This document shows, piece after piece, positions 3,019 through 39,078 of a stretch of DNA of 64,000 nucleotides (position 1 is the stretch's first letter; the number at the start of each line of letters is the position of its first letter). Source of the DNA: Acetobacter sicerae. Lineage in GTDB: Bacteria; Pseudomonadota; Alphaproteobacteria; Acetobacterales; Acetobacteraceae. The position numbers and the translations under genes are program-made. The notes beneath the pieces were generated by a model that saw only the letters and a program-made list of their open reading frames with translations, did not search any database and had not been told where the DNA came from. The stretch is taken from assembly GCF_011516765.1 (NCBI RefSeq), contig NZ_JAAABN010000006.1, positions 124,001 to 188,000 on the forward strand, given 5' to 3'.

Positions 3019-3124
3019 CCTGTTATTTCAGCCAGCTATATGTTTTTCAAACACGAAAAGATCTGTCTTCGCATCTTCTCGTCATCTGCTGAGAGAGGCT
3101 TCGGGACTCCGCCCCTTGCCTCGG

Positions 3125-3142
3125 CCAAAGGCTCGCCTTTGG
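3125..3142. terminator. Short hairpin between convergent hydratase and recO genes
   Basis: CCAAAGG and CCTTTGG flank a CTCG loop in the 154-bp gap between the plus-strand hydratase gene and the minus-strand recO gene. It is a plausible bidirectional transcription end, but no clear T-tract follows on either strand. Confidence 0.4.
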
Positions 3143-3172
3143 TAAACGCAACGCACCAACCGAAATATCCGA

Positions 3173-3943
3173 TCAGTCGCCCTCCGGACCTGTCACAAAA
3201 GACTGCACAACATCCGCCAGTCTGATTCGTGCCGCAGGGAGTGGACGATGAAGAGGACCAAAAACGTCTCGCGACAGGAAATGTCCTGTCAGACGCAGAC
3301 CGTCCCGCCAATCCTCCGCTGTGCCATAGTCCGATTCATCAAGTAGAAAAGCGGGTAATGGCAAAAGACGCGAAGCCCATTTTCCCGCGCCTTCCTGAGA
3401 CACAGCGCGCCCTGTGCGGGGTGAAACGTAAATCAGATCGTCCGTCTGCCCTGTAACGGCGCAGCAGGACAGATCCAGTGCAAAACCAAGATCCCGCAGC
3501 AGGATCGTCTCCCATCGGATGAGAGTCGGGATTTCTACCTCAGGCCCCTGTGTTCCAAGCATCGCAAGCACCTGCGCGCTGTCCTGACATAGTCCGGGAT
3601 AAGGCTCACCCTCCGCCAATGCGCTATCCGCAACAGCGCAAAGAGAAGTCAGGCAGGCAAGGCTGGAACGTGACGACAAAGCACGGGCCGCATTGGGTCC
3701 TGCCATTTCGCCAGTGACAGTCCCGAGTTGCCCCTGAATACGCGTCCGCCACTGGGCCTGCACAAGGTTGCCGTTCTGCCACGTCGCGGCATTCCGGCGA
3801 CCAAGGCCGCCTTTGACCAACCCATGGGAAACGCCCTGAGCTGGAGAGAACAGATGCACAAGAGCGTCAGCCTCCCCAAAGGGAGCGACAGATAAAACAA
3901 GGGCGGGTGCTTCCCACTCAAGAGATGCCCCGCCCCCATTCAT
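3173..3943 (-). CDS. recO: DNA repair protein RecO
   Basis: A 256-residue recombination mediator of the RecFOR pathway that helps load RecA onto SSB-coated gaps. The N-terminal OB-fold region is recognisable (ALVLSVAPFGEADALVHLFS, then GLVKGGLGRR and QWRTRIQGQLGTVTGE), followed by the helical domain (ETILLRDLGFALDLSCCAVTG) and the C-terminal LTGHFLSRDVF. The cysteine pair in LSCCAVTG lies where many RecO proteins have zinc-finger cysteines, but a full CX2C-CX2C set is not visible. The ATG at 3943 lies 17 bp downstream of the tsf stop, so recO may be cotranscribed with rpsB-tsf, in the place often occupied by pyrH and frr. Confidence 0.88.
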   Translation of the reverse strand: MNGGGASLEWEAPALVLSVAPFGEADALVHLFSPAQGVSHGLVKGGLGRRNAATWQNGNLVQAQWRTRIQGQLGTVTGEMAGPNAARALSSRSSLACLTSLCAVADSALAEGEPYPGLCQDSAQVLAMLGTQGPEVEIPTLIRWETILLRDLGFALDLSCCAVTGQTDDLIYVSPRTGRAVSQEGAGKWASRLLPLPAFLLDESDYGTAEDWRDGLRLTGHFLSRDVFGPLHRPLPAARIRLADVVQSFVTGPEGD

Positions 3944-3960
3944 ATCAGAACGACCTGACC

Positions 3961-4866
3961 TTAGCCGCCAGCAGCCTTGGCCACTTCGCTGGCAAAGTCG
4001 TTTTCTTCCTTCTCGATGCCTTCACCAAGCTGGAAGCGATCGAAACCGACCAGCTTGACGCCAGCCTTGGAAAGAACGTCCTTCACGCGGCTCTCGCCGT
4101 CATGCACCCACACCTGCTCCAGAAGAACGACTTCTTCATAGAACTTGCGGATACGACCATCGATCATCTTCTCGACAATCGCTTCCGGCTTGCCAGAAGC
4201 CAGAGCCTGCTCCTTCAGCACCGCGCGCTCACGCTCGATGGAAGCAGGGTCAACGCTGCTGACATCAAGAGCTGCCGGACGCGTTGCCGCAACATGCATG
4301 CCGACCTGACGGCCCAGAGCGATGATGGCGTCGCTCTCGGACGGTGCTTCAATGGCTGCCAGCACGGCGATCTTGCCGAGACCCGGCTTCAGAGCGCCGT
4401 GAATGTAGGTAGCGACAACGCCAGACGGAACTTCCAGCACGCGGGCGCGGCGGATCGACATGTTCTCACCAATGGTGGCGATGAGATGCGTCAGTTCCTC
4501 GGCAACCGTGCGACCGGAGGCAACCGTCGCGTTCTTGATCTTATCAAGGTCTTCACCGACCTTCAGCGCAGCCTTGGCGACTTCCTCGACAAAACCCTGG
4601 AACGCTTCGTTACGGGCCACGAAGTCGGTCTCGGCATTGACCTCGACCATCGCAGCGCGCTTGCCTTCGGAAACAGCACCCACGAGACCTTCGGCGGTCA
4701 CACGGCCAGACTTCTTCGCAGCGGCAGCGAGGCCCTTCTTGCGCAGCCAGTCAATGGCGCCTTCGATCTCACCGGCGGCTTCGTTCAGCGCCTTCTTGCA
4801 GTCCATCATGCCTGCACCGGTCTTCTCGCGAAGTTCTTTCACGAGGGCAGCAGTGATTTCCGCCAT
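3961..4866 (-). CDS. tsf: Translation elongation factor Ts
   Basis: A 301-residue guanine nucleotide exchange factor that recycles EF-Tu-GDP. The N-terminal UBA-like domain starts [20 protein letters not shown] and continues [20 protein letters not shown], followed by the conserved [14 protein letters not shown] (TDFV contacts EF-Tu) near residue 77 and [10 protein letters not shown] further on. A GGAGAG ribosome site precedes the ATG at 4866. It lies 105 bp downstream of rpsB, the conserved S2-Ts gene order, and is followed closely by recO. Confidence 0.98.
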
Positions 4867-4887
4867 GATTCTCTCTCCACAATAGCA

Positions 4888-4961
4888 GCAAGCACGTCAC
4901 CCTGCGGGACGTGCTTGCAATCTTTCATCAGCCGGGTCTGCAGAAATGATCCACAGACCCG
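4888..4961 (-). promoter_or_regulatory. Two tandem hairpins between rpsB and tsf
   Basis: The 105-bp rpsB-tsf spacer holds two inverted repeats. In transcript order the first pairs CGGGTCTG with CAGACCCG (4933-4961) and the second is a perfect 11-bp stem, GCAAGCACGTC/GACGTGCTTGC (4888-4918). Neither is followed by a T-tract before the tsf ribosome site. They could act as a partial terminator, attenuator or RNA-processing site that sets the S2 to EF-Ts ratio. Confidence 0.5.
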
Positions 4962-4971
4962 CTGCCTTGAA

Positions 4972-5775
4972 TCAACCGGCTTCGGCAGGGGCCGCAGCAG
5001 CCGGAGCTTCCGCTGTTTCTTCAACAGCAACCGTCTCGGACACAGGCAGTTCTTCAGCAGCGCCGAAGTCACGGCCCGAAGCGCTCATCTCGGCGGAGAT
5101 ACCGTCAAGGACAGCGCTGGAAACGAGGTTGCAATACAGTTCGATCGCACGGATGGCGTCATCGTTACCCGGGATCGGGTAGGTCACGCCCTCCGGGTTC
5201 GAATTGCTATCGAGAATGGCGACAACCGGGATACCAAGCTTGTTGGCTTCTTCGATCGCCAGCTTCTCTTTTGTCGTGTCGATGACGAACAGGATGTCAG
5301 GCAGACCGCCCATTTCCTTGATACCACCGAGGGAGCGCTCAAGCTTCTCCTTGTCGCGGGTGATGTCGAGGATTTCCTTTTTCGTCAGGCCCTGCGTCTC
5401 GCCGCTCAGCATGTCTTCGATCTGACGCAGACGCTTGATGGAGCCCGTGATGGTCTTCCAGTTGGTCAGCATGCCACCGAGCCAGCGGTGATTGACGTAA
5501 TACTGGCCGCAACGCTGAGCTGCTTCAGCAACCTGATCGGAAGCTGCGCGCTTGGTGCCGACGAACAGAACACGACCACCGCTTGCGACTGTGTCACGGA
5601 TGACCTTCAGGGCGCGGTCAAGCAGAACAACCGTCTGCTGCAGGTCGATGATGTGAACCTGGTTACGCACACCGAACAGGTACGGCGCCATACGCGGGTT
5701 CCAGCGGCGGGTGTGGTGACCAAAGTGAACGCCAGCCTCAAGAAGCTGACGCAGTGTGAAATCAGGCATCGCCAT
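4972..5775 (-). CDS. rpsB: 30S ribosomal protein S2
   Basis: A 267-residue small-subunit ribosomal protein. It opens [20 protein letters not shown] with [18 protein letters not shown] following, the universal S2 signature. Further S2 blocks are [34 protein letters not shown], and [20 protein letters not shown] with GNDDAIRAI after it. The C-terminus is an Ala/Glu-rich tail typical of alphaproteobacterial S2. An AAGGA site lies 9 nt before the ATG at 5775. It is the first gene of the rpsB-tsf(-recO) transcript; the 273-bp upstream gap should hold its promoter and leader. Confidence 0.98.
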
Positions 5776-6048
5776 GATTCAGAATCCTTGCGTTCCGGTT
5801 GTTCCTCCGCAGCGCACCAAATCCGAAAGAACGGACACCAGTGCGGACGCTGCGTGTGAAGTCCCGTGTCACTGGACACAGGCAGGCGCGGTATGACTAT
5901 TTTCCGCGAAAAAATCAACCCCGAAGGTCAGGCTGCAACGGAACAGTCATTTCCCGGACAACCGAACGAAAGACCTGCTCCCCGACGAACACAGATTCCG
6001 ACCGGTTGATCACTCAGATCCCTCCAGCATCGAAACCTGTTTCCAGTC

Positions 6049-25968: not shown

Positions 25969-27201
25969 ATGAAACGGACTTTCTCGGAAAAACTCGCAAT
26001 CCTGTCTGACGCCGCAAAATACGATGCTTCCTGTGCATCGAGCGGCTCGGATCGGCGTGGGTCAAAGAAGGAGCCGGGACTGGGATCAACCGAACGGAGC
26101 GGCATCTGTCATTCATGGACGCCGGATGGCCGATGCGTCTCTCTGCTCAAGATCCTGATGACGAATTTCTGCATTTACGACTGCGCCTACTGCATCAACA
26201 GGGTTTCATCCGGCGTGGAGCGCGCCCGTTTCTCGGTCGAAGAAATCGTCTGGCTGACAATGGAGTTTTATCGACGGAACTATATCGAGGGCCTTTTCCT
26301 GTCCTCCGGCATCATCCGCTCATCCGATTACACCATGGAAGAACTGGTACGTGTCGCAAAAGTTCTCCGTCTGGACAGAGGGTTTCGGGGCTACATTCAT
26401 CTGAAAGCCATTCCCGACGCCTCCCCCGACCTGCTGGCGGAAGCCGGTCTGTATGCGGACCGCCTTTCCATCAATGTGGAAATGCCCACCGAGACAGGAC
26501 TGACCCAGTATGCGCCGGAGAAGGACTCCATCGGCATCCGGTCCGCCATGGGACACATCCGCAAAAAGATGGACGCGACGAAGGAGAAAACCCTTGCCGG
26601 ACGCCGCCCGCCCCGCTTCGCACCCGGCGGACAGAGCACACAGATGATTGTCGGCGCGGATGCTGCAACTGATCAGGATATTCTCTCAAGCAGTTCGGCG
26701 CTCTATTCCGACTACCGACTGAAACGGGTCTATTATTCCGCCTTCAGCCCCATCCCACATGCCTCACAGGCTCTCCCTGCCCAGAAGCCCCCTCTGCTGC
26801 GCGAGCATCGCCTGTATCAGGCAGACTGGCTGTTCCGTTTTTATGGCTTCCAGTTTCAGGAGATCACCGAGAACAGGCCCGACGGCATGCTGGATCTGGA
26901 AGTTGATCCAAAACTGAGCTGGGCTCTGGATAACCGCGCTGTCTTCCCGGTGGACATCAATCAGGCGCCTCGTGAACTGCTGCTGCGCGTTCCGGGCCTC
27001 GGGCCGCGTTCCGTGAAGGTGCTGCTTGCAACGCGCCGTCATAAGACCATTCGACTGGATGATCTGGAACGACTGCGCGTCAGCATAAGAAAAATACGCC
27101 CGTTCATCACCACCCCGGACTGGCGACCCATCAAACTGATCGACCGGATGGACCTCAAATCCCTCTTTGCGCCGCCGCCCCAGCAACTGTCACTTCTGTG
27201 A
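25969..27201 (+). CDS. Putative DNA modification/repair radical SAM protein
   Basis: A 410-residue radical SAM enzyme of the family annotated as 'putative DNA modification/repair radical SAM protein'. The [4Fe-4S] motif is CX3CX2C at Cys68, Cys72 and Cys75 (NFCIYDCAYCINR). The SAM barrel follows, with EGLFLSSGIIRSSDYTMEEL, RGYIHLKAIPDASPDLLAEA and RLSINVEMPTETGL. At residues 329-358 a helix-hairpin-helix DNA-binding element (DINQAPRELLLRVPGLGPRS) is fused at the C-terminus. The chemistry is unknown. The ATG at 25969 sits directly behind a LexA box and lacks an obvious Shine-Dalgarno sequence. Its stop overlaps the next start (GTGA), so the two products are translationally coupled. Confidence 0.85.
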   Translation: MKRTFSEKLAILSDAAKYDASCASSGSDRRGSKKEPGLGSTERSGICHSWTPDGRCVSLLKILMTNFCIYDCAYCINRVSSGVERARFSVEEIVWLTMEFYRRNYIEGLFLSSGIIRSSDYTMEELVRVAKVLRLDRGFRGYIHLKAIPDASPDLLAEAGLYADRLSINVEMPTETGLTQYAPEKDSIGIRSAMGHIRKKMDATKEKTLAGRRPPRFAPGGQSTQMIVGADAATDQDILSSSSALYSDYRLKRVYYSAFSPIPHASQALPAQKPPLLREHRLYQADWLFRFYGFQFQEITENRPDGMLDLEVDPKLSWALDNRAVFPVDINQAPRELLLRVPGLGPRSVKVLLATRRHKTIRLDDLERLRVSIRKIRPFITTPDWRPIKLIDRMDLKSLFAPPPQQLSLL

Positions 27202-27965
27202 AAGAGCATCTCGTTTCATTACCTGAGGCGGCGCCCTTTTCTCTGTGGCGCCTTCACGCCCGCTCCCTGCTGGCTGCGGGGATTGCACCCGAACATATCG
27301 TCTGGCGGAGTTCATCCGGGCAGGATGATCTGTTTTCACAGCCTGACCCATCACCAGAAACCGAAACATCCAAACCCCAGAAAATCAGCAGAAACTGTCT
27401 TCTGTTTCTCGAAACTCTTCTCTGCCATGCCAACCCTGAAAAATTCTCACTCGCCTATCGTATCCTGTGGCGAAGCAGGAGAGAGCGCTCCCTCCTGAAG
27501 ACAGGGACCGATCCCGACATTGTCATGGCCAACAGAATGGCCCATCAGATTGGCCGTGAAGTGCACAAGATGAAAGCCTTTGTCCGTTTCAGGGAGAAAA
27601 CGCCCCAAGGTAGCAACACACGCCACTTTGCAGCGTGGTTTGAACCGGAGCACCATATTCTTGAAAAGGCTGCACCTTTCTTCGCACGCCGTTTCACCGA
27701 CATGAACTGGATGATCCTCACGCCAAAAGGGTCCGTCGGCTGGGATGGAGAAACCTGTGTCGTCACCAGAGAAGCCTGCACACGGACAATTTTCGAAGAC
27801 GAGGCGGAGGCTTTATGGAAGACCTATTACCGCTCCATCTTCAATCCCGCCCGCGTCAAGGTGAAGGCGATGCGATCGGAAATGTCTCCCAAATACTGGA
27901 AAAACCTCCCGGAAACAGAACTGATTCCTGAAATGCTCGCTCAGGCTGCCCGCCAGACATGGTAA
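27198..27965 (+). CDS. DUF4130-type probable DNA metabolism protein, partner of the radical SAM enzyme
   Basis: A 255-residue protein of the family that regularly accompanies the radical SAM/HhH protein. Recognisable segments are FSLAYRILWRSRRERSLLKT, MANRMAHQIGREVHKMKAFV, RFREKTPQGSNTRHFAAWFE, HHILEKAAPFFARRFTDMNW and the C-terminal MRSEMSPKYWKNLPETELIP. In many bacteria this domain is fused to a UdgX-like uracil-DNA glycosylase domain; here the protein ends without one, and no such gene is adjacent. The GTG start at 27198 overlaps the previous stop by four bases. It probably acts on damaged DNA with the radical SAM protein, but the reaction is unknown. Confidence 0.82.
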   Translation: MKEHLVSLPEAAPFSLWRLHARSLLAAGIAPEHIVWRSSSGQDDLFSQPDPSPETETSKPQKISRNCLLFLETLLCHANPEKFSLAYRILWRSRRERSLLKTGTDPDIVMANRMAHQIGREVHKMKAFVRFREKTPQGSNTRHFAAWFEPEHHILEKAAPFFARRFTDMNWMILTPKGSVGWDGETCVVTREACTRTIFEDEAEALWKTYYRSIFNPARVKVKAMRSEMSPKYWKNLPETELIPEMLAQAARQTW

Positions 27966-28612: not shown

Positions 28613-29548
28613 TCACTGTCCGAGATATGCCTGAACCGCTGGCAGACCCGGCTTGCCGTCCACTGTTGTGACACCATCCAGCCACTTCTCCACGGCTTCG
28701 GGATGCGCCTTCATCCAGTCCCTGGTCGCCTGCGCAGGCTTTGTGTGATTTTCTGAAATGGTTTTCATCATCTCGTTTTCGGAAGGGATGGTGAATGTCA
28801 GCTGCTTCAGCAGATGTCCCACATTCGGACATTTTTCCACGTAACCGCTGCCAACAACCGTGTTGACCTCGGCTGATGCGCCGAACTGCTTTTCACCACC
28901 TGTCAGATAGGTGAGATGAAAGTTCATGTTCATCGGGTGCGGTTCCCAGGCAAGGAACACGATCGGTTTCTGGGCAGGAATGGCGCGCGCAACCTGAGAC
29001 AGCATCCCCTGTTCGCTGCTTTCATTGAGATGGAATTTCCCGAGACCAAAATCGTTGGCCTTGATCATATCCAGAATGATCTTGTTTCCGTCATTGCCGG
29101 ATTCAATTCCATAAATCATATTATTTAACCTGGGGCCCCAACTCGCGATGTCCTTGAAATCTTTCAGGCCCTGTTGCGCAACATAATCGGGAACAGCAAG
29201 CGTATACCGTGCGCCGGTAAGGTTTTTTGTGATCCGTTCGACCTTGCCTCTTTTCAGGTAGGGGTCAACATAGGACGCGCCCGAGGGTTCCCAGTCACTA
29301 AGAAAGATGTCGAGCTGGTGATTTTCCAGTGAGAGATAAGCGACAGCCAGCGTCACCATCGTTTCGCGGGTTTTATAGCCCAGACCAGCGAGAAGGTTCA
29401 TTGTGACGCCGTTGGTGACAGCAGCATCCGACCAGCCGACATCTCCGATACGCACCATCTGACAGACTTCAGGTTCAGCAGCCTGAGCCGGCAGAACGCG
29501 CAGCCCGACGCCAAGAAAAACCATGGAAGCGAGAAGTTTCTTCTTCAT
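28613..29548 (-). CDS. choX: Choline ABC transporter, periplasmic substrate-binding protein
   Basis: A 311-residue periplasmic protein of the ChoX/ProX (OpuAC) family that delivers choline to ChoWV. After a signal peptide (KLLASMVFLGVGLRVLPAQA) come VRIGDVGWSDAAVTNGVTMN, LSDWEPSGASYVDPYLKRGK, MIYGIESGNDGNKIILDMIK and PIVFLAWEPHPMNMNFHLTY; the Trp residues in DVGW, SDWEP and LAWEPHPMN are where ChoX builds its aromatic cage for the trimethylammonium group. ATG 29548 starts the signal peptide; the upstream extension is spurious. It is separated from choV by 165 bp, the usual strongly expressed binding-protein arrangement. Choline rather than betaine is inferred from the adjacent bet genes. Confidence 0.9.
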   Translation of the reverse strand: MKKKLLASMVFLGVGLRVLPAQAAEPEVCQMVRIGDVGWSDAAVTNGVTMNLLAGLGYKTRETMVTLAVAYLSLENHQLDIFLSDWEPSGASYVDPYLKRGKVERITKNLTGARYTLAVPDYVAQQGLKDFKDIASWGPRLNNMIYGIESGNDGNKIILDMIKANDFGLGKFHLNESSEQGMLSQVARAIPAQKPIVFLAWEPHPMNMNFHLTYLTGGEKQFGASAEVNTVVGSGYVEKCPNVGHLLKQLTFTIPSENEMMKTISENHTKPAQATRDWMKAHPEAVEKWLDGVTTVDGKPGLPAVQAYLGQ

Positions 29549-29713
29549 ACCAGTGACACGTCCTTTTCCTGTCTGCCCGTTGCCGAAGTATGGGCGCACC
29601 TCAATACATTCCGCAACAGAAACAATTAAATCCTGCATGACTATGGCGCGACTTCCGCGCCGCAAGCTTTCTCTCCCCTATCAGAACTTGCATTATCCAT
29701 GATCAAAACACGA

Positions 29714-30952
29714 TCAATTGACTTTCGATGCGCGGGCAACTCCCGTAATCGCGCCGATCATGTCAGCGTCATCACACAATCCGATAATCTGACTGGCATC
29801 AGAAATCAGAACGGGCATCCCGCTTTTCTGGCGCAGAAGCGCGACTGTGTTGAGTGAAGCCGTAACCGGCACACAATAAACACACCCAGAAACGACCTTC
29901 AGCTCTGAAATATCGTCAGTGTCGTGAAATTGCAGGGGTATTTCCATGCCTGTCCTGTCCGACACGGTAGCCGTCACAGGGTTGAAACCATAATGGCCGG
30001 TTACGTCGAGTTGAATGGTACTATCATCCCACCGGGGACAAACTTCCAGAAGACGCATGACGCTTGCTGCATTCAGCAGCGGCAGCGGATTCATGTGCCT
30101 TACGAAATCACGGACATAATCATCGACCGGCGAGGAAATGATTTCCTGCGGTGGACCCGCCTGAATAATGCGCCCTTCCCGCATGATGGCGATATTGCTG
30201 CCGATCCGGAGCGCCTCATCAATATCATGACTCACGAAAACAATGGTTTTCTTGAGCCGTGTCTGAAGATCCAGAAGCTCGTCCTGAAGCTTGCGACGGA
30301 TCAACGGGTCAAGCGCCGAAAAAGGCTCATCCATCAGGAGGATATCGGCATCCGTTGCAAAAGCCCGCGCCAGACCCACCCGCTGCTGCATACCGCCAGA
30401 GAGTTCCGAAACATAGGAATTGGCCCACCGTGTCAGACCAACCAGTTCCAGTTTTTCCTCGGCGATTTTACGACGCGCATTGGGGGTGAACCCACGAAGC
30501 TCCAGACCAAACGAGACATTTTCCCGTACCGTCCGCCACGGCAGCAGACCGAACTGCTGGAAGACCATGGTGACGCGGGTACGCCGCATATCGCGCAATG
30601 TCTCATCATCACAGTTGGCGATATCGACAAAAGCAGTGCCATTCCCGATCTCGACACTGCCTCGCGTCACTTTGTTGAGACGGTTGGCGGCCCGCAGCAA
30701 TGTCGATTTACCGGAACCGGACAGTCCCATGAGCACGCTGATCTCACCGCGTCTGATCTCGAGGTTGGCATTCGCCACACCGACAGTCACACCCAGTTCA
30801 GCGGCGATCTGTTCGCGTGTGCCACCCTCATCCAGACGTTTGACTGCCTGGGCAATCGCACTTGACGAATTATTCCGATGAAAAAGAATATCCACGTTCC
30901 TGAAGGAGAGAGCAGCAGTTTTACCTTGTGGTTCTGTCCGCACGGCTTCCAT
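29714..30952 (-). CDS. choV: Choline ABC transporter, ATP-binding protein
   Basis: A 412-residue ATPase energising choline uptake. Walker A is GLSGSGKST starting at residue 76, the signature is LSGGMQQRVGLARA, Walker B is ILLMDEPFSALDP, and the H-loop is VSHDIDEALRIGS. The N-terminal extension of about 65 residues (RNVDILFHRNNSSSAIAQAV) is typical of the ChoV/ProV branch, and the C-terminal 120 residues correspond to a degenerate CBS-like regulatory region. The ATG at 30952 has a GAGGAG site 8 nt upstream. It lies 13 bp downstream of choW, so choWV are cotranscribed, probably with choX. Confidence 0.93.
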   Translation of the reverse strand: MEAVRTEPQGKTAALSFRNVDILFHRNNSSSAIAQAVKRLDEGGTREQIAAELGVTVGVANANLEIRRGEISVLMGLSGSGKSTLLRAANRLNKVTRGSVEIGNGTAFVDIANCDDETLRDMRRTRVTMVFQQFGLLPWRTVRENVSFGLELRGFTPNARRKIAEEKLELVGLTRWANSYVSELSGGMQQRVGLARAFATDADILLMDEPFSALDPLIRRKLQDELLDLQTRLKKTIVFVSHDIDEALRIGSNIAIMREGRIIQAGPPQEIISSPVDDYVRDFVRHMNPLPLLNAASVMRLLEVCPRWDDSTIQLDVTGHYGFNPVTATVSDRTGMEIPLQFHDTDDISELKVVSGCVYCVPVTASLNTVALLRQKSGMPVLISDASQIIGLCDDADMIGAITGVARASKVN

Positions 30953-30965
30953 ACAGATAGTCTCC

Positions 30966-31811
30966 TCAGTGCGTTTTCTTGCGGCAGAGCCGGTCCAGAA
31001 TGATGGCGACCAGAACAATAGCCAGACCGGATTCAAATCCGGTGTCGATTTGAACCGTATTCAGGGCCCGCACGACCGGCACACCCAGTCCACCCGCACC
31101 GACAAGGGCTGCAATCACCACCATGGAGAGACTGAGCATGATGCACTGGCTCAGACCCTCACGGATCATGGGAAGCGCCGCCGGTACCTCGACTTTCCAC
31201 AAGCGCTGCCTTGGCGTGGCGCCAAATGCATCGCCAGCCTCCAGCAAGGCTTTGGGAACAGAGGAAATCCCGAGCTGCGTCATGCGAATGGGCGCAGGGA
31301 TGGCGAACACCACGGTGGAAATTGTGCCCGGAACGGTGCCCAGACCAAACAGGATCAGGGTCGGGATCAGATAAACAAAGGTCGGCAGGGTCTGCATGAG
31401 ATCCAGAACTGGATGCAGGATCTTCGCAAGCCATGGGCGATGCGCGGAGGCGATGCCGATCGGCACCCCGATCAGCATACACGTGAAAGTCGCAAAAAAG
31501 ATGAGCGACAGGGTCGCCATCGTTTCCTGCCAGTATCCCTGATTGATGATGAACAGCAGGCCGAGCGCAACCAGCACGCACGTACTAATGGCACGCTTCC
31601 AGAACCACACGCCGATCGTCAGAAGCGCCACAAACAGGACGGGCGGCACCGAGGTCAGCAGGTTGGTGAAACCATCGGCGCAGGACCCGATCGCCTCGCT
31701 GATGACGTCGAAACCACCCTGACAATGATCCCTGATCCAGTCGACGGCATTCGACGCCACTTCACCGACAGGTATTTTATGCGATGTGATCCAGTCTTCG
31801 AGCCCGTTCAT
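30966..31811 (-). CDS. choW: Choline ABC transporter, permease
   Basis: A 281-residue inner-membrane permease with about six helices. It begins MNGLEDWITSHKIPVGEVAS, and the BPD-transporter core includes MATLSLIFFATFTCMLIGVP, LDLMQTLPTFVYLIPTLILF, GTISTVVFAIPAPIRMTQLG and the EAA loop EAGDAFGATPRQRLWKVEVP, followed by IMLSLSMVVIAALVGAGGLG. ATG 31811 was chosen because family homology starts there; the longer frame adds 19 residues without support. It is the first gene of choW-choV-choX and is divergent from the BetI-BetB fusion gene across a 504-bp control region. Confidence 0.93.
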   Translation of the reverse strand: MNGLEDWITSHKIPVGEVASNAVDWIRDHCQGGFDVISEAIGSCADGFTNLLTSVPPVLFVALLTIGVWFWKRAISTCVLVALGLLFIINQGYWQETMATLSLIFFATFTCMLIGVPIGIASAHRPWLAKILHPVLDLMQTLPTFVYLIPTLILFGLGTVPGTISTVVFAIPAPIRMTQLGISSVPKALLEAGDAFGATPRQRLWKVEVPAALPMIREGLSQCIMLSLSMVVIAALVGAGGLGVPVVRALNTVQIDTGFESGLAIVLVAIILDRLCRKKTH

Positions 31812-32315
31812 TGATCTCGCTTCACAGTCCGGAGATTTCAGGCCTGGCCAGGGCAGGCGGAAAGCCATGAGCAGGTATTCCCGTGAGCCGCGTCATACGG
31901 ACCCCACCCTTTTTCAGTTCGACATCGTAACCGAAAGACGGAGGATATAAAGTTCTTTCGTGCATCACGTCAGAAAGCACATCCTACGCCGCCTGATCTG
32001 AAACCGTTCAGGCTGACTACAGTTTATTCACCGCCCCATCATTGCGTTCAAGAAACAGAAAGGAATTGATTTATTCCGACGTCGCATTGGATAAAGTCGC
32101 CGTCCGTTATCCTTTTCGATGAGCACCATAGGCCGCCTTATTGAATCAGCGATCAAAGGCGGTCCACCACCGTAAAAACAGCTACTTCTTGAACGAAATC
32201 GCCAGAAAATTGACAGGAAAATTCATCTTTCCGTTTGCTGATTTCCTGTGGACATTATTTTTTCGTTTCGACATAAAGATAATATTGAACGATCATTCAA
32301 AGGCATTCGAATCCC
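31812..32315. promoter_or_regulatory. Divergent control region between choWVX and betIB-betA
   Basis: This 504-bp region has no supported gene and must hold both promoters. The clearest element is the palindrome at 32285-32300. Isolated CGTTCA or TTGAACG half-sites also occur (for example near 32006, 32046 and 32187), which might bind the same regulator. Confidence 0.5.
32285..32300. promoter_or_regulatory. Near-perfect palindrome, candidate BetI operator
   Basis: TTGAACGATCATTCAA is symmetric at 14 of 16 positions and ends 15 bp before the start codon of the BetI-BetB fusion. TetR-family regulators of bet genes bind dyads of this type close to their own promoter. The assignment is an inference from position and symmetry. 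Confidence 0.5.
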
Positions 32316-34412
32316 ATGATGCAGCCCCCCGCTCCTTCCGCCATGGCACGACTGGATGATGAGCGTCGCCGTAGTTTTGTTGCCGCAACACTCTCGGTTC
32401 TCGCCGACAACGGGTATGTCGGAACGACCCTCGCCCGGATCGCCGAGCGCGCAGATGTCTCCCCCAGTCTGCTGGTGCATTATTTCGGCGACAAGGACAC
32501 TCTGCTCGGCACAGCCTTCTGGTATCAGTCCGAATCGCTGCGTCATGAGATCCTGAACCGCTTTTTGACAGCCCGCACCCCGCGTGAGCGTCTGCAGGCC
32601 GTCATTGATTCCCTGCTGGCCCGTGACCAGTTTCAGCAGGAGGAAGGCGCGACATGGCTGTCTTTCTGGGGACAGGTCCCTTACGTGCCGACCCTCAAAC
32701 GTATCCAGCGGATCTACCAGAAGCGGATTCTGGCCAATCTGTCCCACGATCTGAAAGCACTTTTGCCCGGTCGGGACGTCCATTCCCTCGCCACCTCGAT
32801 AGCTGCGCTGATAGACGGCACCTGGCTCCGGGCTGCCCTTTCAGACTGGGAAGAGGCGGACAGCACCGCTGCCCGGGCGCAGGTCACGGCCTTTCTGGAC
32901 AGTCAGATCGCCCTGCATCAGGCGAACCTGCCTGCGCCATCCTTTCAGATCAGGCGGCAGGAGGTCTGCTCCAACTGGATCAACGGGCGTCCCATGCCGA
33001 CAAAGGGCGCACGCTTCGAAACGCGCAATCCCGCCACTGGCGAAGTGCTTGCAGAAGTGGAAATCGCTGGTGAGCAGGAGCACGCTACGGCGATTGAAAG
33101 CGCCAGACGTGGACAGAAAATCTGGGCACGGATGACCGGCACAGAACGGGGCCGGGTTCTACGCAAGGCCGCCGATCTTCTCCGCCGTGACAACGACATG
33201 CTCGCCCGCATCGAGACGCTCGACACCGGCAAGCCGATTGCCGAGACGGCGGCAGTGGATATTCTCTCAGGCGCGGATGCCCTCGAATATTTCGGCTCAG
33301 TCGCCAGCGCGATCAACGGCGAGGCGATGGATCTCGGCGAGCAGGCCTTCGCCTATACGCGCCGTGAACCGCTTGGCGTGACGGCGGGCATCGGCGCATG
33401 GAACTATCCGATCCAGATCGCCTGCTGGAAGTCCGCTCCGGCGCTGGCCTGCGGCAATGCGATGATCTTCAAAAGCTCCGAGATGACGCCGCTGACATCG
33501 GTGCGGCTGGCCGAGATCTACCGTGAGGCCGGCCTGCCCGACGGTGTCTTCAACGTGCTGCACGGCGCGGGAGATGTGGGACGACGTCTGTGCGCCGATC
33601 CCGATATTCGCAAGGTCAGCCTCACAGGTTCCGTTCCCACGGGCAAGGCGGTGATGCGTGAAGCCTCCAATACGCTGAAATATGTCACGCTGGAACTGGG
33701 CGGAAAATCTCCGCTCATCATCTTTGACGATGCTGACGTGGATAACGCCGTGTCCGCAGCACTGCTCGGCAATTTCTACTCGGGCGGTGAAATCTGCTCG
33801 AACGGAACACGGGTTTTCGTGCAGTCCGGAATCCGAGACCGCTTCCTTGCGGAACTGAAGCGGCGTGTCGAAGCCATGAAAATCGGCGATCCACTCGCGA
33901 CGGATACGGATGTTGGTGCGCTCATCAGCGTGCCGCATCTGGAAAAGGTCATGGCTTACGTGGAAAGTGGCATTGCTCAAGGCGCGCAGCTTCTGACCGG
34001 CGGTCGTCGTCTTACAGAAGGAGCATTCGGCAAGGGCGCGTTCATGCAGCCGACCATCTTTACCGGCTGTCATGATGACATGAAGATCGCCCGTGAGGAA
34101 ATCTTTGGTCCGGTCATGACCGTTCTCGATTTCCATGACGAGGATGAAGTCATTGTCCGCGCCAATGCAACAGAGTTCGGTCTGGCGGCGGGCGTGTTCA
34201 CAAACGATCTCACACGCGGCCATCGCGTTGTCGCCGCTCTGGAAGCAGGCACCTGCTGGATCAATCAGTACAACATCACGCCGATCGAAATGCCCTTCGG
34301 TGGCTACAAACAGTCCGGACTTGGTCGTGAAAACAGTCAGGCTGCACTGGATCATTACACACAGATCAAGAGCGTCTATGTGGCGCTCGGCAATGTCGAA
34401 TCCCCCTACTGA
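32316..34412 (+). CDS. betIB: Fusion protein: BetI choline-sensing repressor + BetB betaine aldehyde dehydrogenase
   Basis: One uninterrupted frame of 698 codons. Residues about 10-203 are a complete TetR/BetI regulator: helix-turn-helix TLARIAERADVSPSLLVHYF (38-57) and the BetI effector core ATWLSFWGQV...SIAALIDGTWLRAALS. A linker of roughly 12-15 residues (ANLPAPSFQIRRQ) leads into complete betaine aldehyde dehydrogenase, which oxidises betaine aldehyde to glycine betaine with NAD(P)+. BetB motifs are GAWNYPIQIACWKSAPAL, TLELGGKSP (general base Glu460) and GGEICSNGTRVF (nucleophile Cys494), spaced as in separate BetB. In most bacteria these are two genes. The only internal in-frame ATG near the junction (32994, Met227) lies inside the BetB fold and has no well-placed ribosome site. 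betA follows after 11 bp. Confidence 0.88.
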   Translation: MMQPPAPSAMARLDDERRRSFVAATLSVLADNGYVGTTLARIAERADVSPSLLVHYFGDKDTLLGTAFWYQSESLRHEILNRFLTARTPRERLQAVIDSLLARDQFQQEEGATWLSFWGQVPYVPTLKRIQRIYQKRILANLSHDLKALLPGRDVHSLATSIAALIDGTWLRAALSDWEEADSTAARAQVTAFLDSQIALHQANLPAPSFQIRRQEVCSNWINGRPMPTKGARFETRNPATGEVLAEVEIAGEQEHATAIESARRGQKIWARMTGTERGRVLRKAADLLRRDNDMLARIETLDTGKPIAETAAVDILSGADALEYFGSVASAINGEAMDLGEQAFAYTRREPLGVTAGIGAWNYPIQIACWKSAPALACGNAMIFKSSEMTPLTSVRLAEIYREAGLPDGVFNVLHGAGDVGRRLCADPDIRKVSLTGSVPTGKAVMREASNTLKYVTLELGGKSPLIIFDDADVDNAVSAALLGNFYSGGEICSNGTRVFVQSGIRDRFLAELKRRVEAMKIGDPLATDTDVGALISVPHLEKVMAYVESGIAQGAQLLTGGRRLTEGAFGKGAFMQPTIFTGCHDDMKIAREEIFGPVMTVLDFHDEDEVIVRANATEFGLAAGVFTNDLTRGHRVVAALEAGTCWINQYNITPIEMPFGGYKQSGLGRENSQAALDHYTQIKSVYVALGNVESPY

Positions 34413-34423
34413 GGAGGCAGGCC

Positions 34424-36082
34424 ATGGAACAGGAATTTGATTATATCGTCGTCGGAGCCGGGTCTGCCGGATGCGTGCTGGCCAACCGCCTGACGGAAGA
34501 CGGCAAGGACAATGTGCTGCTGCTGGAATTCGGTGGCAGCGACAAGTCGATCATCGTGCAGATGCCGACAGCGCTGGCCATGCCGATGCATTCCAAACGA
34601 TTCAACTGGTTTTATGAAAGCGAGCCGGAGCCTTATCTTGGTGGGCGACGCATGTTCACGCCGCGCGGCAAGGGGCTTGGCGGCTCCTCCTCCATCAACG
34701 GTATGGTGTATGTGCGCGGCAATGCACTCGATTTCGAAGACTGGGTGAAAGAAGGCGCTGTCGGCTGGTCCTATGCCGATGTTCTGCCCTATTTCAAAAA
34801 AGCCGAGTCCTGCACGGAAGGTGATGATACCTATCGTGGACGGACGGGGCCATTGCATACCCAGTATGGCACGGTGGACAATCCGCTCCATGCGGCATGG
34901 CTGAAAGCGGGATATCAGGCCGGTTATCCGGTCACGCATGATTATAACGGCTATCAGCAGGAAGGCTTCGACAAGATGAGCATGACCGTCAAGGACGGTC
35001 GGCGCTGGAACACAGCGAACGCTTATCTGCGCCCGGTCATGCATCGGAAAAATCTTGAGGTGCACCAGCAGGCTCGCGCAACGAAGATCCTGTTTGAAGG
35101 CAGGCGGGCTGTCGGCATTGCCTATACCCGCGCGGGCAAGGAATGTGTCGCACGGGCCCGGAAGGAAGTGATCCTCTCCGGTGGTTCGATCAATTCGCCG
35201 CAACTTCTGCTTCTTTCCGGAATCGGACCTGCCGATCAGCTTCGGGCGCTCGGGATTCCTGTGATCGCAGACCGTCCGGGTGTGGGCGAAAACTTGCAGG
35301 ATCATCTGGAGTTCTATTTCCAGATCGCCTGCAAGAAACCGATCACCCTCTATTCGGCCATGAGCCCGCTGGCGAAACTGAAGATCGGTCTCCGCTGGAT
35401 TCTGCGAAAAGATGGTCTTGGCGCCACGAACCATTTCGAAAGCTGTGGTTTCATCCGCAGCAAGGCAGGCGTCCCCTACCCTGACATCCAGTTTCACTTC
35501 CTGCCGCTGGCTGTCACCTATGACGGAAAAGGACTGGCGTCGGGCCACGGCTATCAGGCGCATGTCGGTCCGATGCGTTCGAAGAGCCGGGGTCATGTGC
35601 GCCTGAAATCGGCAAACCCGGAGGATAAGCCGAAGATTCTCTTCAACTACCTGAGTCATCCTGACGACTGGGAAGAGATGCGCGCCTGCGTTCGCCTGAC
35701 CCGTGAACTGTTCAATCAGGAGGCATTCCAGCCCTTCCACGGTCATGAACTGCAACCCGGTGAAGATTGCACGTCCGACGAGCAGATTGACGAGTTCATC
35801 CGCCAGAAGGTGGAAAGCGCGCTCCACCCCTCCTGCACCTGCAAGATGGGCGCACTCGACGATCCGATGGCGGTTGTCGATCCGGAAACGCGTGTGATTG
35901 GCGTGGAAGGACTGCGCGTGGTGGATTCTTCCATCATGCCGCGCGTCACCAACGGCAATCTGAACGCGCCGACGACGATGATCGCCGAAAAAGCTGCCGA
36001 TCACATCCGTAACCGGCCTATGCTGCTTCCGTCGCATGCACCGTATTATGTCGCTCCACACTGGGAAACCCGACAGCGCTGA
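34424..36082 (+). CDS. betA: Choline dehydrogenase
   Basis: A 552-residue FAD enzyme of the GMC oxidoreductase family that oxidises choline to betaine aldehyde (and can continue to betaine), passing electrons to the respiratory chain at the inner membrane. It has the N-terminal dinucleotide fold DYIVVGAGSAGCVLANRLTE, GMC signature GKGLGGSSSINGMVYVRGNA, second signature GGSINSPQLLLLSGIGP, and the C-terminal active-site region HPSCTCKMGALDDPMAVVD and VTNGNLNAPTTMIAEKAADH with catalytic His/Asn. A GGAGG ribosome site sits 6 nt before ATG 34424, and only 11 bp separate it from the BetI-BetB fusion, so both belong to one operon. Confidence 0.95.
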   Translation: MEQEFDYIVVGAGSAGCVLANRLTEDGKDNVLLLEFGGSDKSIIVQMPTALAMPMHSKRFNWFYESEPEPYLGGRRMFTPRGKGLGGSSSINGMVYVRGNALDFEDWVKEGAVGWSYADVLPYFKKAESCTEGDDTYRGRTGPLHTQYGTVDNPLHAAWLKAGYQAGYPVTHDYNGYQQEGFDKMSMTVKDGRRWNTANAYLRPVMHRKNLEVHQQARATKILFEGRRAVGIAYTRAGKECVARARKEVILSGGSINSPQLLLLSGIGPADQLRALGIPVIADRPGVGENLQDHLEFYFQIACKKPITLYSAMSPLAKLKIGLRWILRKDGLGATNHFESCGFIRSKAGVPYPDIQFHFLPLAVTYDGKGLASGHGYQAHVGPMRSKSRGHVRLKSANPEDKPKILFNYLSHPDDWEEMRACVRLTRELFNQEAFQPFHGHELQPGEDCTSDEQIDEFIRQKVESALHPSCTCKMGALDDPMAVVDPETRVIGVEGLRVVDSSIMPRVTNGNLNAPTTMIAEKAADHIRNRPMLLPSHAPYYVAPHWETRQR

Positions 36083-36115: not shown

Positions 36116-36757
36116 ATGTCAGTGACGATTGAGACCCTTACCGGAGAACGTCTTCTTTCGGTTGTCCCTGATCTCGCACGTCTGCGAATCACGATCTTCC
36201 GGGAATGGCCTTATCTCTACGACGGCAATCTGGCCTACGAAGAGAAATATCTGCACGCCTACATGCGGAGTCCCGGCACTGCTGTTGTCGTGGCAAAGGA
36301 TGGTGACAAAGTTGTCGGCGCTTCGACCTGTCTCCCACTGAAAGATGAGATGGCGTGCATCCGTGCGCCCTTTGAAGAACGTGGTCTTTCCACGGACGAT
36401 TTCTTCTATTTCGGGGAATCCGTCCTGCTGGAATCCTATCGTGGACAGGGTATCGGCGTGCGTTTTTTCGAGGAGCGCGAGCGTCACGCACGCTCCGCAA
36501 GTAACGCGTCGTTTGCCGTATTCTGCGCCGTTCGTCGCTGGAAAACCGATCCCCGTCGGCCGGACAATGCAAAGTCTCTCGCGGATTTCTGGATGAAACG
36601 TGGCTTTACGCCCCTGCCCGGTGTCTCCTGCCATCTGGGCTGGAAGGAACCGGACGTCCCCGGCCAGCGTGACCATCTTCTCGATTTTCATATCAAACCA
36701 CTCAGAGGCGCCCCGATCCCCGAGGCACTCCTGCAAAAAGATCAGGACGAGGATTGA
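36116..36757 (+). CDS. GNAT-family N-acetyltransferase
   Basis: A 213-residue acyl-CoA-dependent acetyltransferase. The acetyl-CoA loop is SVLLESYRGQGIGVRFFEER (R-G-Q-G-I-G), preceded by the beta strand VVVAKDGDKVVGASTCLPLK and followed by a conserved core with VRRWKTDPRRPDN. The C-terminal half is longer than in minimal GNATs. ATG 36116 has AGGAA upstream and lies 33 bp after betA. Its stop overlaps the next start by one base (TGATG), so it is coupled to the carbon-nitrogen hydrolase. The acceptor is unknown; association with choline/betaine genes suggests an amine or aminoaldehyde metabolite, which is inference. Confidence 0.8.
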   Translation: MSVTIETLTGERLLSVVPDLARLRITIFREWPYLYDGNLAYEEKYLHAYMRSPGTAVVVAKDGDKVVGASTCLPLKDEMACIRAPFEERGLSTDDFFYFGESVLLESYRGQGIGVRFFEERERHARSASNASFAVFCAVRRWKTDPRRPDNAKSLADFWMKRGFTPLPGVSCHLGWKEPDVPGQRDHLLDFHIKPLRGAPIPEALLQKDQDED

Positions 36758-37638
36758 TGAACAAACCCCTCCGATTAGGCGTTCTGGCCTGGGAAGTCGC
36801 GAAAATCGGCTCTCTGGAAGATTATGCTGCCCATCTCGACAGACTGGTGGCCGAGGGCGCGACGCAGGCTGACCTGCTGCTGATGCCGGAATATGCCTGC
36901 ATGGAAGCGGCAGCGGCCGTCACAAAAGAGCCAGATCCCTCCGCCGAACTGGATGCAATATGCGCACACAGTGACGCCATTCTTGCCATCATGCGAGAGG
37001 CCGCGAAAAAGCATTCGGTCTGGTTGATGCCGGGCACCCTGCCCCGCCCCGAGGCAGCAGGCGTGCGCAATCGTGCCCCGCTGATCGCGCCTGATGGCTC
37101 CGTAGCGTTTCAGGACAAGCACGTCATGACGCGGTTCGAGAATGAATCATGGGGTGTGAAGGCGGGCAATCCACCCGGCGTATTCGAAACACCGTGGGGA
37201 CTGATCGGAACGTCCGTCTGTTATGATTCGGAATTTCCCATGCTGGCGCGGGCGCAGGTCGAAGCGGGCGCGTGGCTGATCCTTGTGCCGACCTGCACGG
37301 ATTCCATGCACGGCTTCAACCGCGTGAAGATTTCCGCGCAGGCGCGGGCGCTGGAAAACCAGTGTTTCGTGGCTGTTTCACCAACAGTCGGCGATGCTCC
37401 ATGGCTGGCCACACTGGATGAAAATCACGGCTGTGCGGGTGTTTATGGTCCGGTCGATAGAGGTTTCCCCGACGACGGTGTGATTGCGGAAGGAAAACTC
37501 GACGAACCCGGCTGGATCTTTGCCACTCTTTCTCCAGACACGCTGGAAGAAGTGCGGGAGAACGGTGCTGTCCGCAATTGCCGGGACTGGCCGACCACCG
37601 TGCCTCCATCCGGGAAGAATGCTTTTTCGGAAACATAA
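36757..37638 (+). CDS. Carbon-nitrogen hydrolase (nitrilase/amidase superfamily)
   Basis: A 293-residue cytoplasmic hydrolase. The Glu-Lys-Cys triad is complete: Glu45 (LLLMPEYACME), Lys121 (AFQDKHVMTRFE) and Cys155 (GTSVCYDSEFP). It resembles the aliphatic amidase/Nit2/N-carbamoyl-type branches, which cleave non-peptide C-N bonds, rather than true nitrilases. A TTG in frame at 36754 is less likely than ATG 36757, which overlaps the acetyltransferase stop by one base. The two coupled genes lie between betA and glyA, so they probably act on the same small molecule, perhaps as an N-acyl protection and deprotection pair. The substrate is not known. Confidence 0.85.
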   Translation: MNKPLRLGVLAWEVAKIGSLEDYAAHLDRLVAEGATQADLLLMPEYACMEAAAAVTKEPDPSAELDAICAHSDAILAIMREAAKKHSVWLMPGTLPRPEAAGVRNRAPLIAPDGSVAFQDKHVMTRFENESWGVKAGNPPGVFETPWGLIGTSVCYDSEFPMLARAQVEAGAWLILVPTCTDSMHGFNRVKISAQARALENQCFVAVSPTVGDAPWLATLDENHGCAGVYGPVDRGFPDDGVIAEGKLDEPGWIFATLSPDTLEEVRENGAVRNCRDWPTTVPPSGKNAFSET

Positions 37639-37732
37639 AAATTTCCGCGTTTCCGGGCAAGGAGACGTCGCAAATATGAAAGTCTCGAACGGCTCCTTGT
37701 TCCTATATTTTCATGCAACAGCGGCAGATTAG

Positions 37733-37750
37733 AGAATGGCGTTCCATTCT
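37733..37750 (+). terminator. Hairpin in the leader region of glyA
   Basis: AGAATGG pairs with CCATTCT around a CGTT loop, then TCTCCTG follows, 38 bp before the glyA ATG. It may end transcription from the amidohydrolase gene or attenuate glyA. I did not recognise a known riboswitch fold in the 150-bp gap. Confidence 0.4.
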
Positions 37751-37788
37751 TCTCCTGTCGAACTCCAGTTCAGGGCACGGCAAAAATC

Positions 37789-39078
37789 ATGAGCACGGAC
37801 ACGTTGAAGAGTTTTTTCCAGTCTTCGTTGGCTGAGGTTGACGCCGAGGTTGCGGCGGCGATTGCGAGCGAGTTCGAGCGTCAGCGCGACGGGATCGAGC
37901 TGATTGCGTCTGAGAACATGGTGTCGGAGGCTGTGCTGCAGGCTCAGGGCAGCGTTCTGACCAACAAATACGCCGAGGGTTATCCGGGCCGTCGCTACTA
38001 TGGCGGCTGCTCCGAGGTCGACAAGGTCGAGGTCCTCGCCATCGAGCGCGCGAAACAGATGTTCGGCGCGGGCTTCGCCAACGTGCAGCCGCACTCGGGC
38101 GCCAACGCCAACCAGGCGGCGTTCATGGCGGTTGTCGCGCCAGGCGACACGGTGCTGGGCATGAGCCTCGCCGCCGGTGGTCACCTCACACACGGCGCGG
38201 CCCCGAACTATTCCGGCAAGTGGTTCAACGCCGTGCAGTATGGCGTGCGCAAGCAGGACGGCTATCTCGACTATGACGAGATGGAATCGCTGGCCCGCGA
38301 GCACAAGCCGAAGCTGATCGTCGCCGGTAGCTCGGCCTATCCGCGCATCATCGACTTTGCCCGCGTCCGCAAGATCGCTGACGAGGTCGGCGCTTTCCTG
38401 ATGGTGGACATGGCGCACTTCGCCGGTCTGGTGGCGGCCGGTCTGTATCCGAGCCCGGTCCCGCACGCCGACATCGTCACCACGACGACGCACAAGACGC
38501 TGCGCGGTCCGCGTGGCGGCCTGATCCTGACAAACAGCGAGGCGCTGGCGAAGAAGATCAACTCCGCCGTGTTCCCCGGCCTGCAGGGTGGTCCGCTGAT
38601 GCATGTGATCGCCGCCAAGGCCGTCGCGTTCGGCGAAGCGCTGAAGCCGGAGTTCACCGAGTACCAGAAAGCTGTCGCGGCCAACGCGAAGGTGCTGGGC
38701 GAGACGCTTGTGGCGCGTGGCTTCGACCTCGTGACGGGCGGCACGGACAGCCATCTGCTGCTGGTCGATCTGCGTCCGAAGAAGGTGACGGGCAAGATCG
38801 CGGAAAAGGCTCTGGAACGCGCGGGCATCACGGCGAATAAGAACGCCGTGCCGTTCGACCCGGAGAAGCCTGCGATCACGTCCGGTATCCGTCTGGGCAG
38901 CCCGGCGGCGACGGCGCGTGGTTTCCGTGAGGCCGAGTTCCGTGAGGTCGGCGAGATGATCGACGAGGTTCTGACCGCGCTGGCCGCCGCTGGTGGCGAG
39001 GGCGATGTCGCCGTCGAGAACGCCGTGCATGAGCGCGTCAAGGCGCTCTGCGCGAAGTTCCCGATCTATAAAAAGTGA
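37789..39078 (+). CDS. glyA: Serine hydroxymethyltransferase
   Basis: A 429-residue PLP enzyme that interconverts glycine + methylenetetrahydrofolate and serine + tetrahydrofolate. The PLP lysine is Lys236 in [20 protein letters not shown]; other signatures are [40 protein letters not shown] and [20 protein letters not shown]. It is full length and uses GC-rich, highly biased codons, suggesting strong expression. Within this island it is well placed to convert the glycine left after betaine demethylation into serine, consuming a one-carbon unit released by sarcosine oxidase; SdaA, encoded further on, then makes pyruvate. It could also be the organism's only GlyA. Confidence 0.96.

Follow-up and report, generated by a model that had tools for sequence, protein, structure and literature searches.

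A probable self-regulating repressor–enzyme: BetI and betaine-aldehyde dehydrogenase joined in one open frame of Acetobacter sicerae

The repressor BetI, the betaine-aldehyde dehydrogenase BetB and the operators called BetI boxes are already known. In the betIBA operons of Escherichia coli, Acinetobacter and Vibrio, betI and betB are separate genes with betA next. In a 64,000-nucleotide stretch of the Acetobacter sicerae genome (contig NZ_JAAABN010000006.1, positions 124,001 to 188,000; 'the window', to which coordinates refer unless another locus is named), the same two families occur in the same order with betA behind them, and a single gene, betI::betB (32316..34412, + strand), encodes both. 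What does a repressor do when it is part of an enzyme of its own pathway? Our analysis suggests that the product is probably a self-regulating repressor–enzyme, in which a choline-responsive BetI half is held on a flexible tether to a BetB half that carries out the chemistry.

Repressor and enzyme share one open frame

The gene is one open frame of 698 codons, from an ATG start to a TGA stop with zero internal stops, and its 698-residue product matches both Pfam and NCBIfam models. Pfam places TetR_N at residues 22–64, TetR_C_6 at 89–198 and Aldedh at 231–687, bearing out the first-pass annotation of this DNA, which had described a complete TetR/BetI domain and a complete BetB in a single 698-codon polypeptide. 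The TetR-type helix-turn-helix (HTH) part spans about residues 16–66 (32361..32513, +). It is followed by the BetI-type ligand and dimerisation part, residues 89–198 (32580..32909, +), whose match to TetR_C_6 (PF13977, the BetI-type C-terminal family) scores 92.2 against a cut-off of 27; the BetI model NF001978 gives 165.6 bits, above its cut-off of 118, but the fusion stays below that of a second BetI model, TIGR03384. The BetB half, residues 220–698 (32973..34409, +), passes both the betaine-aldehyde dehydrogenase model TIGR01804 (685.6 bits, cut-off 668.6) and NF009725 (786.1, cut-off 593). Asn363, Lys386, Glu460 and Cys494, which we take to be the catalytic residues of this half, are present and are invariant across 61 aligned fusions, as are W114, W118, D167 and W170 of the ligand part. 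The BetI half is 35% identical to E. coli BetI, yet of 37 positions near-invariant among fusions, 27 have the same residue in that protein. Residues of both the DNA-reading and the ligand part have been retained. By TIGR03384 it is the sole BetI-grade protein in the A. sicerae genome (183 bits, runner-up 41).

A stop codon lost through sequencing or assembly error is practically excluded, because the same frame occurs in seven other genomes of the genus at 79–97% identity and, at 56–97% identity, in isolates, a complete plasmid and metagenome-assembled genomes (MAGs). The first-pass annotation had also raised the prospect of close relatives with the two genes apart; unfused BetB (68–71% identity) was indeed found in 4 of 49 genomes of the genus, yet with no BetI in the 6 kb upstream. 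Eight of the 49, A. sicerae included, carry the fusion, and the other 37 lack a close BetB, with dehydrogenases of about 43% identity or less among the matches listed. The two-domain architecture, whose spread in Acetobacteraceae had been a question from the outset, was found in 16 of 29 BetB-bearing genomes in an even sample of the family (two from Acetobacter, one being A. sicerae itself), the remaining 13 comprising a truncated form (genome G139), one gene cut by a contig end (G057) and 11 unfused genes. Even samples of the class and the phylum, both including the A. sicerae genome, gave 3 of 48 and 5 of 111.

In a genome contig collection, 79 of the best 80 loci have both halves in one open frame; these loci are the top of at least 579 confirmed ones, ranked by match to the fusion, and are uninformative on its frequency. 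The exception, Aquibaculum arenosum, has a stop codon between the halves. Hosts include Acetobacter, Gluconacetobacter, Komagataeibacter, Acidocella, Acidisoma, Ancylobacter, Azorhizobium, Methylobrevis and Faunimonas, together with MAGs of Caulobacterales, Sphingomonadales and Gammaproteobacteria. A repressor–enzyme chimaera is kept, then, in Acetobacterales, Caulobacterales, Hyphomicrobiales, Sphingomonadales and gammaproteobacterial MAGs. On the complete Komagataeibacter saccharivorans plasmid it is a single coding sequence named betB, betaine-aldehyde dehydrogenase; as this annotated record, the one examined, names just the enzyme, the regulator half may escape annotation-based surveys. 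A match on an Indioceanicola plasmid (H3) was rejected as a fusion, BetB having its own frame there.

A probable single origin, with purifying selection on both halves

From 171 oriented loci, 17 duplicates were removed to leave 154 BetB rows (91 fused, 63 unfused); L104, which lacks the HTH, is counted within the 91, and L105 is labelled unfused merely because its contig ends there. Both trees were quick searches, assessed by Shimodaira–Hasegawa-like approximate likelihood-ratio (SH-aLRT) support alone and drawn with midpoint roots. In the BetB tree the 91 non-redundant fusions all lie inside one clade of 105 rows (SH-aLRT 95), with Aquibaculum next to it (clade of 106, SH-aLRT 98). In the BetI tree (115 rows) one branch parts off exactly the 91 fused rows (SH-aLRT 98), and nearest to them stand the separate BetI proteins of G366 and of Aquibaculum. 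The BetB tree requires seven label changes, which we read as one gain and several losses. Because all fusions lie together in both trees, the simplest history would be one old fusion of an adjoining betI–betB pair followed by several losses of BetI; several independent fusions were considered and are not needed, each tree grouping all of them. The presence of the fusion in gammaproteobacterial MAGs suggests horizontal transfer.

Judging from the ratio of non-synonymous to synonymous substitution rates (dN/dS), both halves are under purifying selection. Comparing A. sicerae with its Acetobacter relatives L009, L089, L010 and L011 gave 0.02–0.05 for the HTH, 0.05–0.11 for the BetI ligand part and 0.03–0.07 for BetB, with 0.12–0.75 for the linker in the three of these four comparisons in which it was computable. 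Three pairs elsewhere in the clade (L016/L017, L041/L048 and L081/L082) gave 0.05–0.12 for the HTH and 0.07–0.10 for the ligand part, and a fourth (L057/L085) 0.06 and 0.20.

Operators accompany the BetI half

Half-site counts upstream of the fused genes yielded the palindrome ATTGAA-N6-TTCAAT. Two predicted BetI operators precede the A. sicerae gene: a proximal one, TTGAACGATCATTCAA (32285..32300, no strand assigned), which matches TTGAA-N6-TTCAA exactly 31 bases before the ATG, and a distal one, TTGAATCAGCGATCAA (32141..32156, likewise unstranded), with one mismatch, 144 bases from the first. In A. sicerae and five Acetobacter relatives the half-sites of both operators are nearly fixed, and the spacer and flanks vary; the palindrome at 32285–32300 to which the first-pass annotation had pointed is real, conserved and in front of the fusion gene. 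With at most one mismatch, TTGAA-N6-TTCAA precedes 86 of 89 fused genes (the exceptions are L034, L070 and L104; two of the 91 fusions were dropped for too little upstream DNA), compared with a mean of 1.35 and a maximum of 3 in sequences of equal dinucleotide make-up, the random control for false positives. Exact matches precede 56 fused genes, compared with 0.05 in the control. The betI–betT interval of E. coli K-12 contains TTGATTGGACGTTCAA, one mismatch from the motif, which the E. coli betIBA operon thus shares.

A weight matrix was built from the sites of these fused and unfused loci themselves (L104 and fusions with fewer than 300 upstream bases left out, giving 88). It found a site at 88 of 88 fused and 23 of 23 unfused-adjacent betI–betB loci, which is no independent result because the matrix was trained on those loci. 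Among 27 other loci, one of which (L105) shows just two bases upstream, 7 have a site, and three of these 7 have BetI about 610 bases off. Before the BetI-less BetB genes of the fusion clade no operator was found in any of 13 cases (12 with 450 bases scanned, L107 with 195), nor was there one anywhere in the 8–15 kb of L169–L174. L106 and L109–L112 have choV immediately before betB in the same orientation, and their promoter may therefore be farther upstream than the 450-base scan reached; L173, from the genome of L106, has no site in its 14 kb either. Of all the evidence, this pattern speaks most strongly for a fused BetI half that works as a repressor of its own operon. As for other BetI repressors, a BetI-type palindromic operator precedes the bet genes, and the gene adjoins betA and a choline transporter.

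Across the A. sicerae genome there are four exact matches to TTGAAYNNNNRTTCAA, one being the fusion operator, and 21 matches with at most one mismatch versus 9 for a reversed control. Of the other three exact sites, with frames named by eye, one (an exact TTGAATGCGCGTTCAA at about 1501–1516 of L180, G000:C2:373147) lies between divergent carbon–nitrogen (CN)-hydrolase-like and short-chain dehydrogenase/reductase (SDR)-like frames, one between a MerR-like and a hydrolase-like frame, and one within or next to an HTH-protein-like frame. No wider choline regulon could be made out from their positions.

Loss of the BetI half

BetI is absent in 13 loci inside the fusion clade, perhaps through five independent losses, and these losses, with the operator gone too, amount to natural deletion experiments. 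In four Acetobacter genomes (L169–L172) the neighbours are unchanged, with choX divergent and betA behind, and betB begins, by eye, with a ribosome-site-like run and an ATG at the linker position. The 6 kb upstream of these betB genes contain no match to BetI, and in the four genomes TIGR03384 scores no higher than 47.4 bits, with TetR-type matches alone. A lone half-site-like CATTCAA about 80–105 bases before betB in these loci resembles a relic. L104 (G139) retains only BetI residues from about 141 on, in frame, with no HTH match in any frame and no operator, and has a ribosome-site match and an ATG at the natural BetB start; it appears to be a fusion gene caught decaying (about 1303–1710 of that locus).

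The 13 absences and the partial L104 indicate that BetI is dispensable in some lineages, and together with weaker constraint on BetI in the pair L013/L014 they could suggest that the BetI half survives as a relic attached to the enzyme. The low dN/dS of this half in the A. sicerae comparisons, the presence of operators with BetI and their absence without it, and the lack of a second BetI in the A. sicerae genome make a relic very improbable.

Several observations nevertheless weigh against a self-regulating repressor–enzyme. On the BetI model TIGR03384 the A. sicerae fusion scores 183.6 bits, 18 short of the cut-off of 201.3, and 16 of 18 fused genomes stay below it (G795 and G691 pass), with the two nearest unfused genomes, G366 and G496, passing. 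A second BetI-like protein (E < 1e-20) is found in 3 of the 18 fused genomes (G991, G795 and G224), and the BetI-less G241 and G674 have BetI-like proteins elsewhere (100 and 78 bits). In L013/L014 dN/dS reaches 0.48 for the HTH and 0.38 for the ligand part, compared with 0.13 for BetB, and the linker shows zero amino-acid changes in L041/L048 and L057/L085, so that neither the constraint on BetI nor the rapid change of the linker holds everywhere.

A variable, probably flexible linker between the halves

The halves are joined by a linker, residues 204–219 (32925..32972, +), that contains no start codon. An AlphaFold2 model (mean predicted local distance difference test (pLDDT) score 81.8, alignment depth 61 sequences) has two folded parts, with pLDDT below 50 at linker residues 206–214, which are predicted to be disordered, and also at residues 1–13, 343–347 and 645–691. 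The linker is Ala/Pro-rich and varies in length, the span from Arg187 to the NPA motif being 27–58 residues in the 91 fusions, and its mean commonest-residue frequency over these rows is 0.27, compared with 0.66–0.80 for the HTH, BetI ligand and BetB parts. Among the best 50 of 1596 matches to solved structures none contains both halves; all are aldehyde dehydrogenases by title.

In the mechanism that we favour, the N-terminal BetI half would occupy the TTGAA-N6-TTCAA operators, which lie between its own gene and the divergent genes for choline transport, and block the promoter; choline bound by this half would relieve repression. The C-terminal BetB half would convert betaine aldehyde to glycine betaine, and the flexible linker would join the two, its variability speaking against tight coupling. 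Upon induction one repressor would be made per enzyme, a forced 1:1 dosage that had been proposed at the start and that a single polypeptide supports; the repressor pool would therefore track pathway capacity, allowing quick shut-off of the operon once choline is spent. We assume relief of repression rather than release from DNA because the effect of choline on DNA binding differs among studied BetI proteins, that of A. baylyi releasing DNA with choline 'unlike in E. coli' (PMC7876524). The first-pass statement that BetI lets go of DNA with choline thus agrees with A. baylyi and not with E. coli, and is too simple.

The same annotation had proposed a trigger enzyme, in which the state of the dehydrogenase (betaine aldehyde, NAD+/NADH) alters DNA binding by the BetI half. 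This has a precedent in PutA of enteric bacteria, a proline catabolic enzyme that itself directly represses the put operon (PMC6978683), and ten fusion-specific conserved BetI positions, including A30, L52, L101, G119 and Q135, might be taken in its favour. Such coupling would have to cross a linker that is modelled with low confidence, varies in length and evolves fast in the A. sicerae comparisons; BetB has just three fusion-specific positions, two of them kept in 12 of 12 BetI-less relatives compared; and the BetI half retains ligand-part residues common to E. coli BetI. As a candidate interface, the ten BetI and three BetB residues were not decisive. Sensing by the dehydrogenase is so far not supported, and we consider a strict trigger enzyme quite unlikely.

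It is also unlikely that the halves are parted in the cell by internal initiation or linker proteolysis, with the fusion serving expression coupling alone. Met227 is the sole ATG, GTG or TTG from Arg187 to the NPATGEV motif, sits within the first BetB strand and has no ribosome-site match of five bases before it, and an AGGAGG near 32960 in the linker has no in-frame ATG, GTG or TTG at usable spacing, in keeping with the first-pass view that no stop codon or credible internal start separates the halves. The junction is without ATG, GTG or TTG in 16 of the 91 fusions and without ATG in 47, and several lineages lack the first BetB strand there, as expected if free BetB is unneeded. Six of the 91, however, have an ATG and a ribosome-site match of at least five bases near the natural BetB start, which counts against a strictly single chain and means that some fusions may also yield free BetB; two further fusions have a GTG farther upstream. 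The Ala/Pro-rich composition of the linker and the ribosome-site-like run and ATG seen by eye at this position in BetI-less Acetobacter relatives likewise favour separation. An absent ribosome-site match is weak evidence against an internal start, because by the same score 29 of the 91 fusions have none of at least four bases at their own start.

Paired operators precede most fused genes

For the tethering and the quaternary structure in our preferred reading, a self-regulating repressor–enzyme on a flexible tether, the excess of paired operators offers a new hint. By the weight matrix, 70 of 88 fused loci have two operators and 5 have three, compared with one in 22 of 23 unfused-adjacent loci, the other (L132) having two that are 20 bases apart. 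With a stricter threshold and wider separation, at least two operators are found at 71 of the 88 fused loci and at none of the 23 unfused ones. Since BetB forms tetramers and TetR-family repressors form dimers, the assembled fusion would be expected to have two BetI dimers and might bind two operators at once. We tentatively raise the idea, doubtful as it is, that the BetB tetramer serves as a scaffold tying two BetI dimers together, which would have made the repressor bivalent, and that promoters then gained a second operator.

The second operator might instead merely serve the promoter of the divergent transporter, one operator per promoter, with no bivalent binding. This alternative, which concerns the bivalency step alone, is a serious one, and we lean only slightly against it. 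Where a divergent choline ATP-binding cassette (ABC) transporter is present, 54–58 of 60 fused genes, depending on threshold, have at least two sites, and where none is recognised 11 of 28 have a single site. Yet the remaining 17 of those 28 still have at least two (some of the 28 loci show little DNA or another divergent gene), and just one is found at each of the 10 unfused loci that share this divergent transporter. At L049 and L072 (TonB receptor gene) and at L055 (major facilitator superfamily (MFS) gene), moreover, the upstream neighbour is co-oriented, and a divergent promoter does not readily explain the second site there.

Operator spacing, mostly 133–206 bases, shows no 10.5-base phasing among spacings of at least 60 bases, which tells against bivalent binding and agrees with one operator per promoter. 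When each cluster was represented by a single spacing, with clusters drawn at three identity levels (leaving 13, 28 and 42 spacings), n × R squared at 10.5 bases was 1.5, 1.4 and 0.9; higher values at 10 bases (4.7, 3.2, 2.1) and 13 bases (4.0, 5.8, 6.7) were given no meaning. A further point against is that the contrast in operator number rests on one fusion event and, all fusions being of one origin, counts once in evolutionary terms. Single-site fused loci are found in Caulobacterales (L020–L023, L040) and Sphingomonadales (L081–L084, L088, L146) and at L018 and L098, joined at the stricter threshold by L016, L017, L030 and L052. The contrast between one and two operators makes a link between enzyme oligomers and bivalent DNA binding a testable hypothesis.

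Relation to known systems

Compared with the betIBA operons, in which betI and betB are separate and one operator is the rule, the fused loci have one frame and mostly two operators. The nearest known design that could be named is PutA, in which a ribbon-helix-helix domain is combined with a flavin redox switch, DNA binding being altered by proline and the flavin redox state, and which includes an aldehyde dehydrogenase module. Like PutA, the fusion is a metabolic enzyme with its own repressor domain in the same chain. It differs in that the repressor is a BetI of TetR type that brings a ligand part of its own, and in that no flavin domain was found: Pfam shows TetR_N, TetR_C_6 and Aldedh only, with no ribbon-helix-helix or proline dehydrogenase domain that would indicate homology to PutA. 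If our reading is right, the fusion would be another enzyme with its own repressor domain besides PutA, the sole precedent that could be named.

Within the Alphaproteobacteria, Ruegeria pomeroyi also controls its bet genes by BetI through palindromes with choline as effector (PMC12442346). It differs from A. sicerae in having two separate BetI proteins and another, perfect palindrome, ATTGACG-CGTCAAT (same source). In the main text of that paper 'fused' does not occur and 'fusion' refers just to a PCR (polymerase chain reaction) method; in PMC7824335 'fused' is used of methyltransferase genes. No description of a BetI–BetB fusion was found in the titles and abstract openings of the open-licence PMC papers that literature searches listed.

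Neighbouring genes

Directly behind the fusion gene, 11 bases after its end, lies betA (34424..36082, +), encoding a choline dehydrogenase of the glucose–methanol–choline (GMC) oxidoreductase family; betA follows 104 of 105 fused loci (duplicates included), the remaining one being cut by a contig end. On the other side and divergently oriented are the genes of a choline/betaine ABC transporter: a choW-like permease (30966..31868, −), a choV-like ABC ATPase (29714..31036, −) and a choX-like OpuAC substrate-binding protein (28613..29665, −), the last two with a TTG start as listed, the true start of each possibly lying later.

Neighbours differ among lineages. L035, L043 and L053 come from gammaproteobacterial or unassigned proteobacterial MAGs; their divergent gene encodes a FAD-dependent oxidoreductase (DAO family) in place of the choline ABC transporter. 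In L081, a Sphingomonadales MAG, a sulfatase-family gene, possibly choline-O-sulfatase (4207–5835 of that locus), precedes the fusion by about 138 bases, in the same orientation. A TonB-dependent receptor gene (2925–6031) is divergent from the fusion on the K. saccharivorans plasmid (L184), and L015, also K. saccharivorans, has three operator matches upstream of the fusion; from these two loci a choline-linked outer-membrane uptake is possible in this species. In the window, betA is followed at 36116–39078 by genes for a GCN5-related N-acetyltransferase (GNAT), a carbon–nitrogen hydrolase and serine hydroxymethyltransferase; of the loci in view, only A. sicerae and Acetobacter L009–L011 have GNAT and hydrolase matches downstream of betA. 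Two adjoining frames at 25969–27965 resemble, by eye, a radical-SAM protein and its partner.

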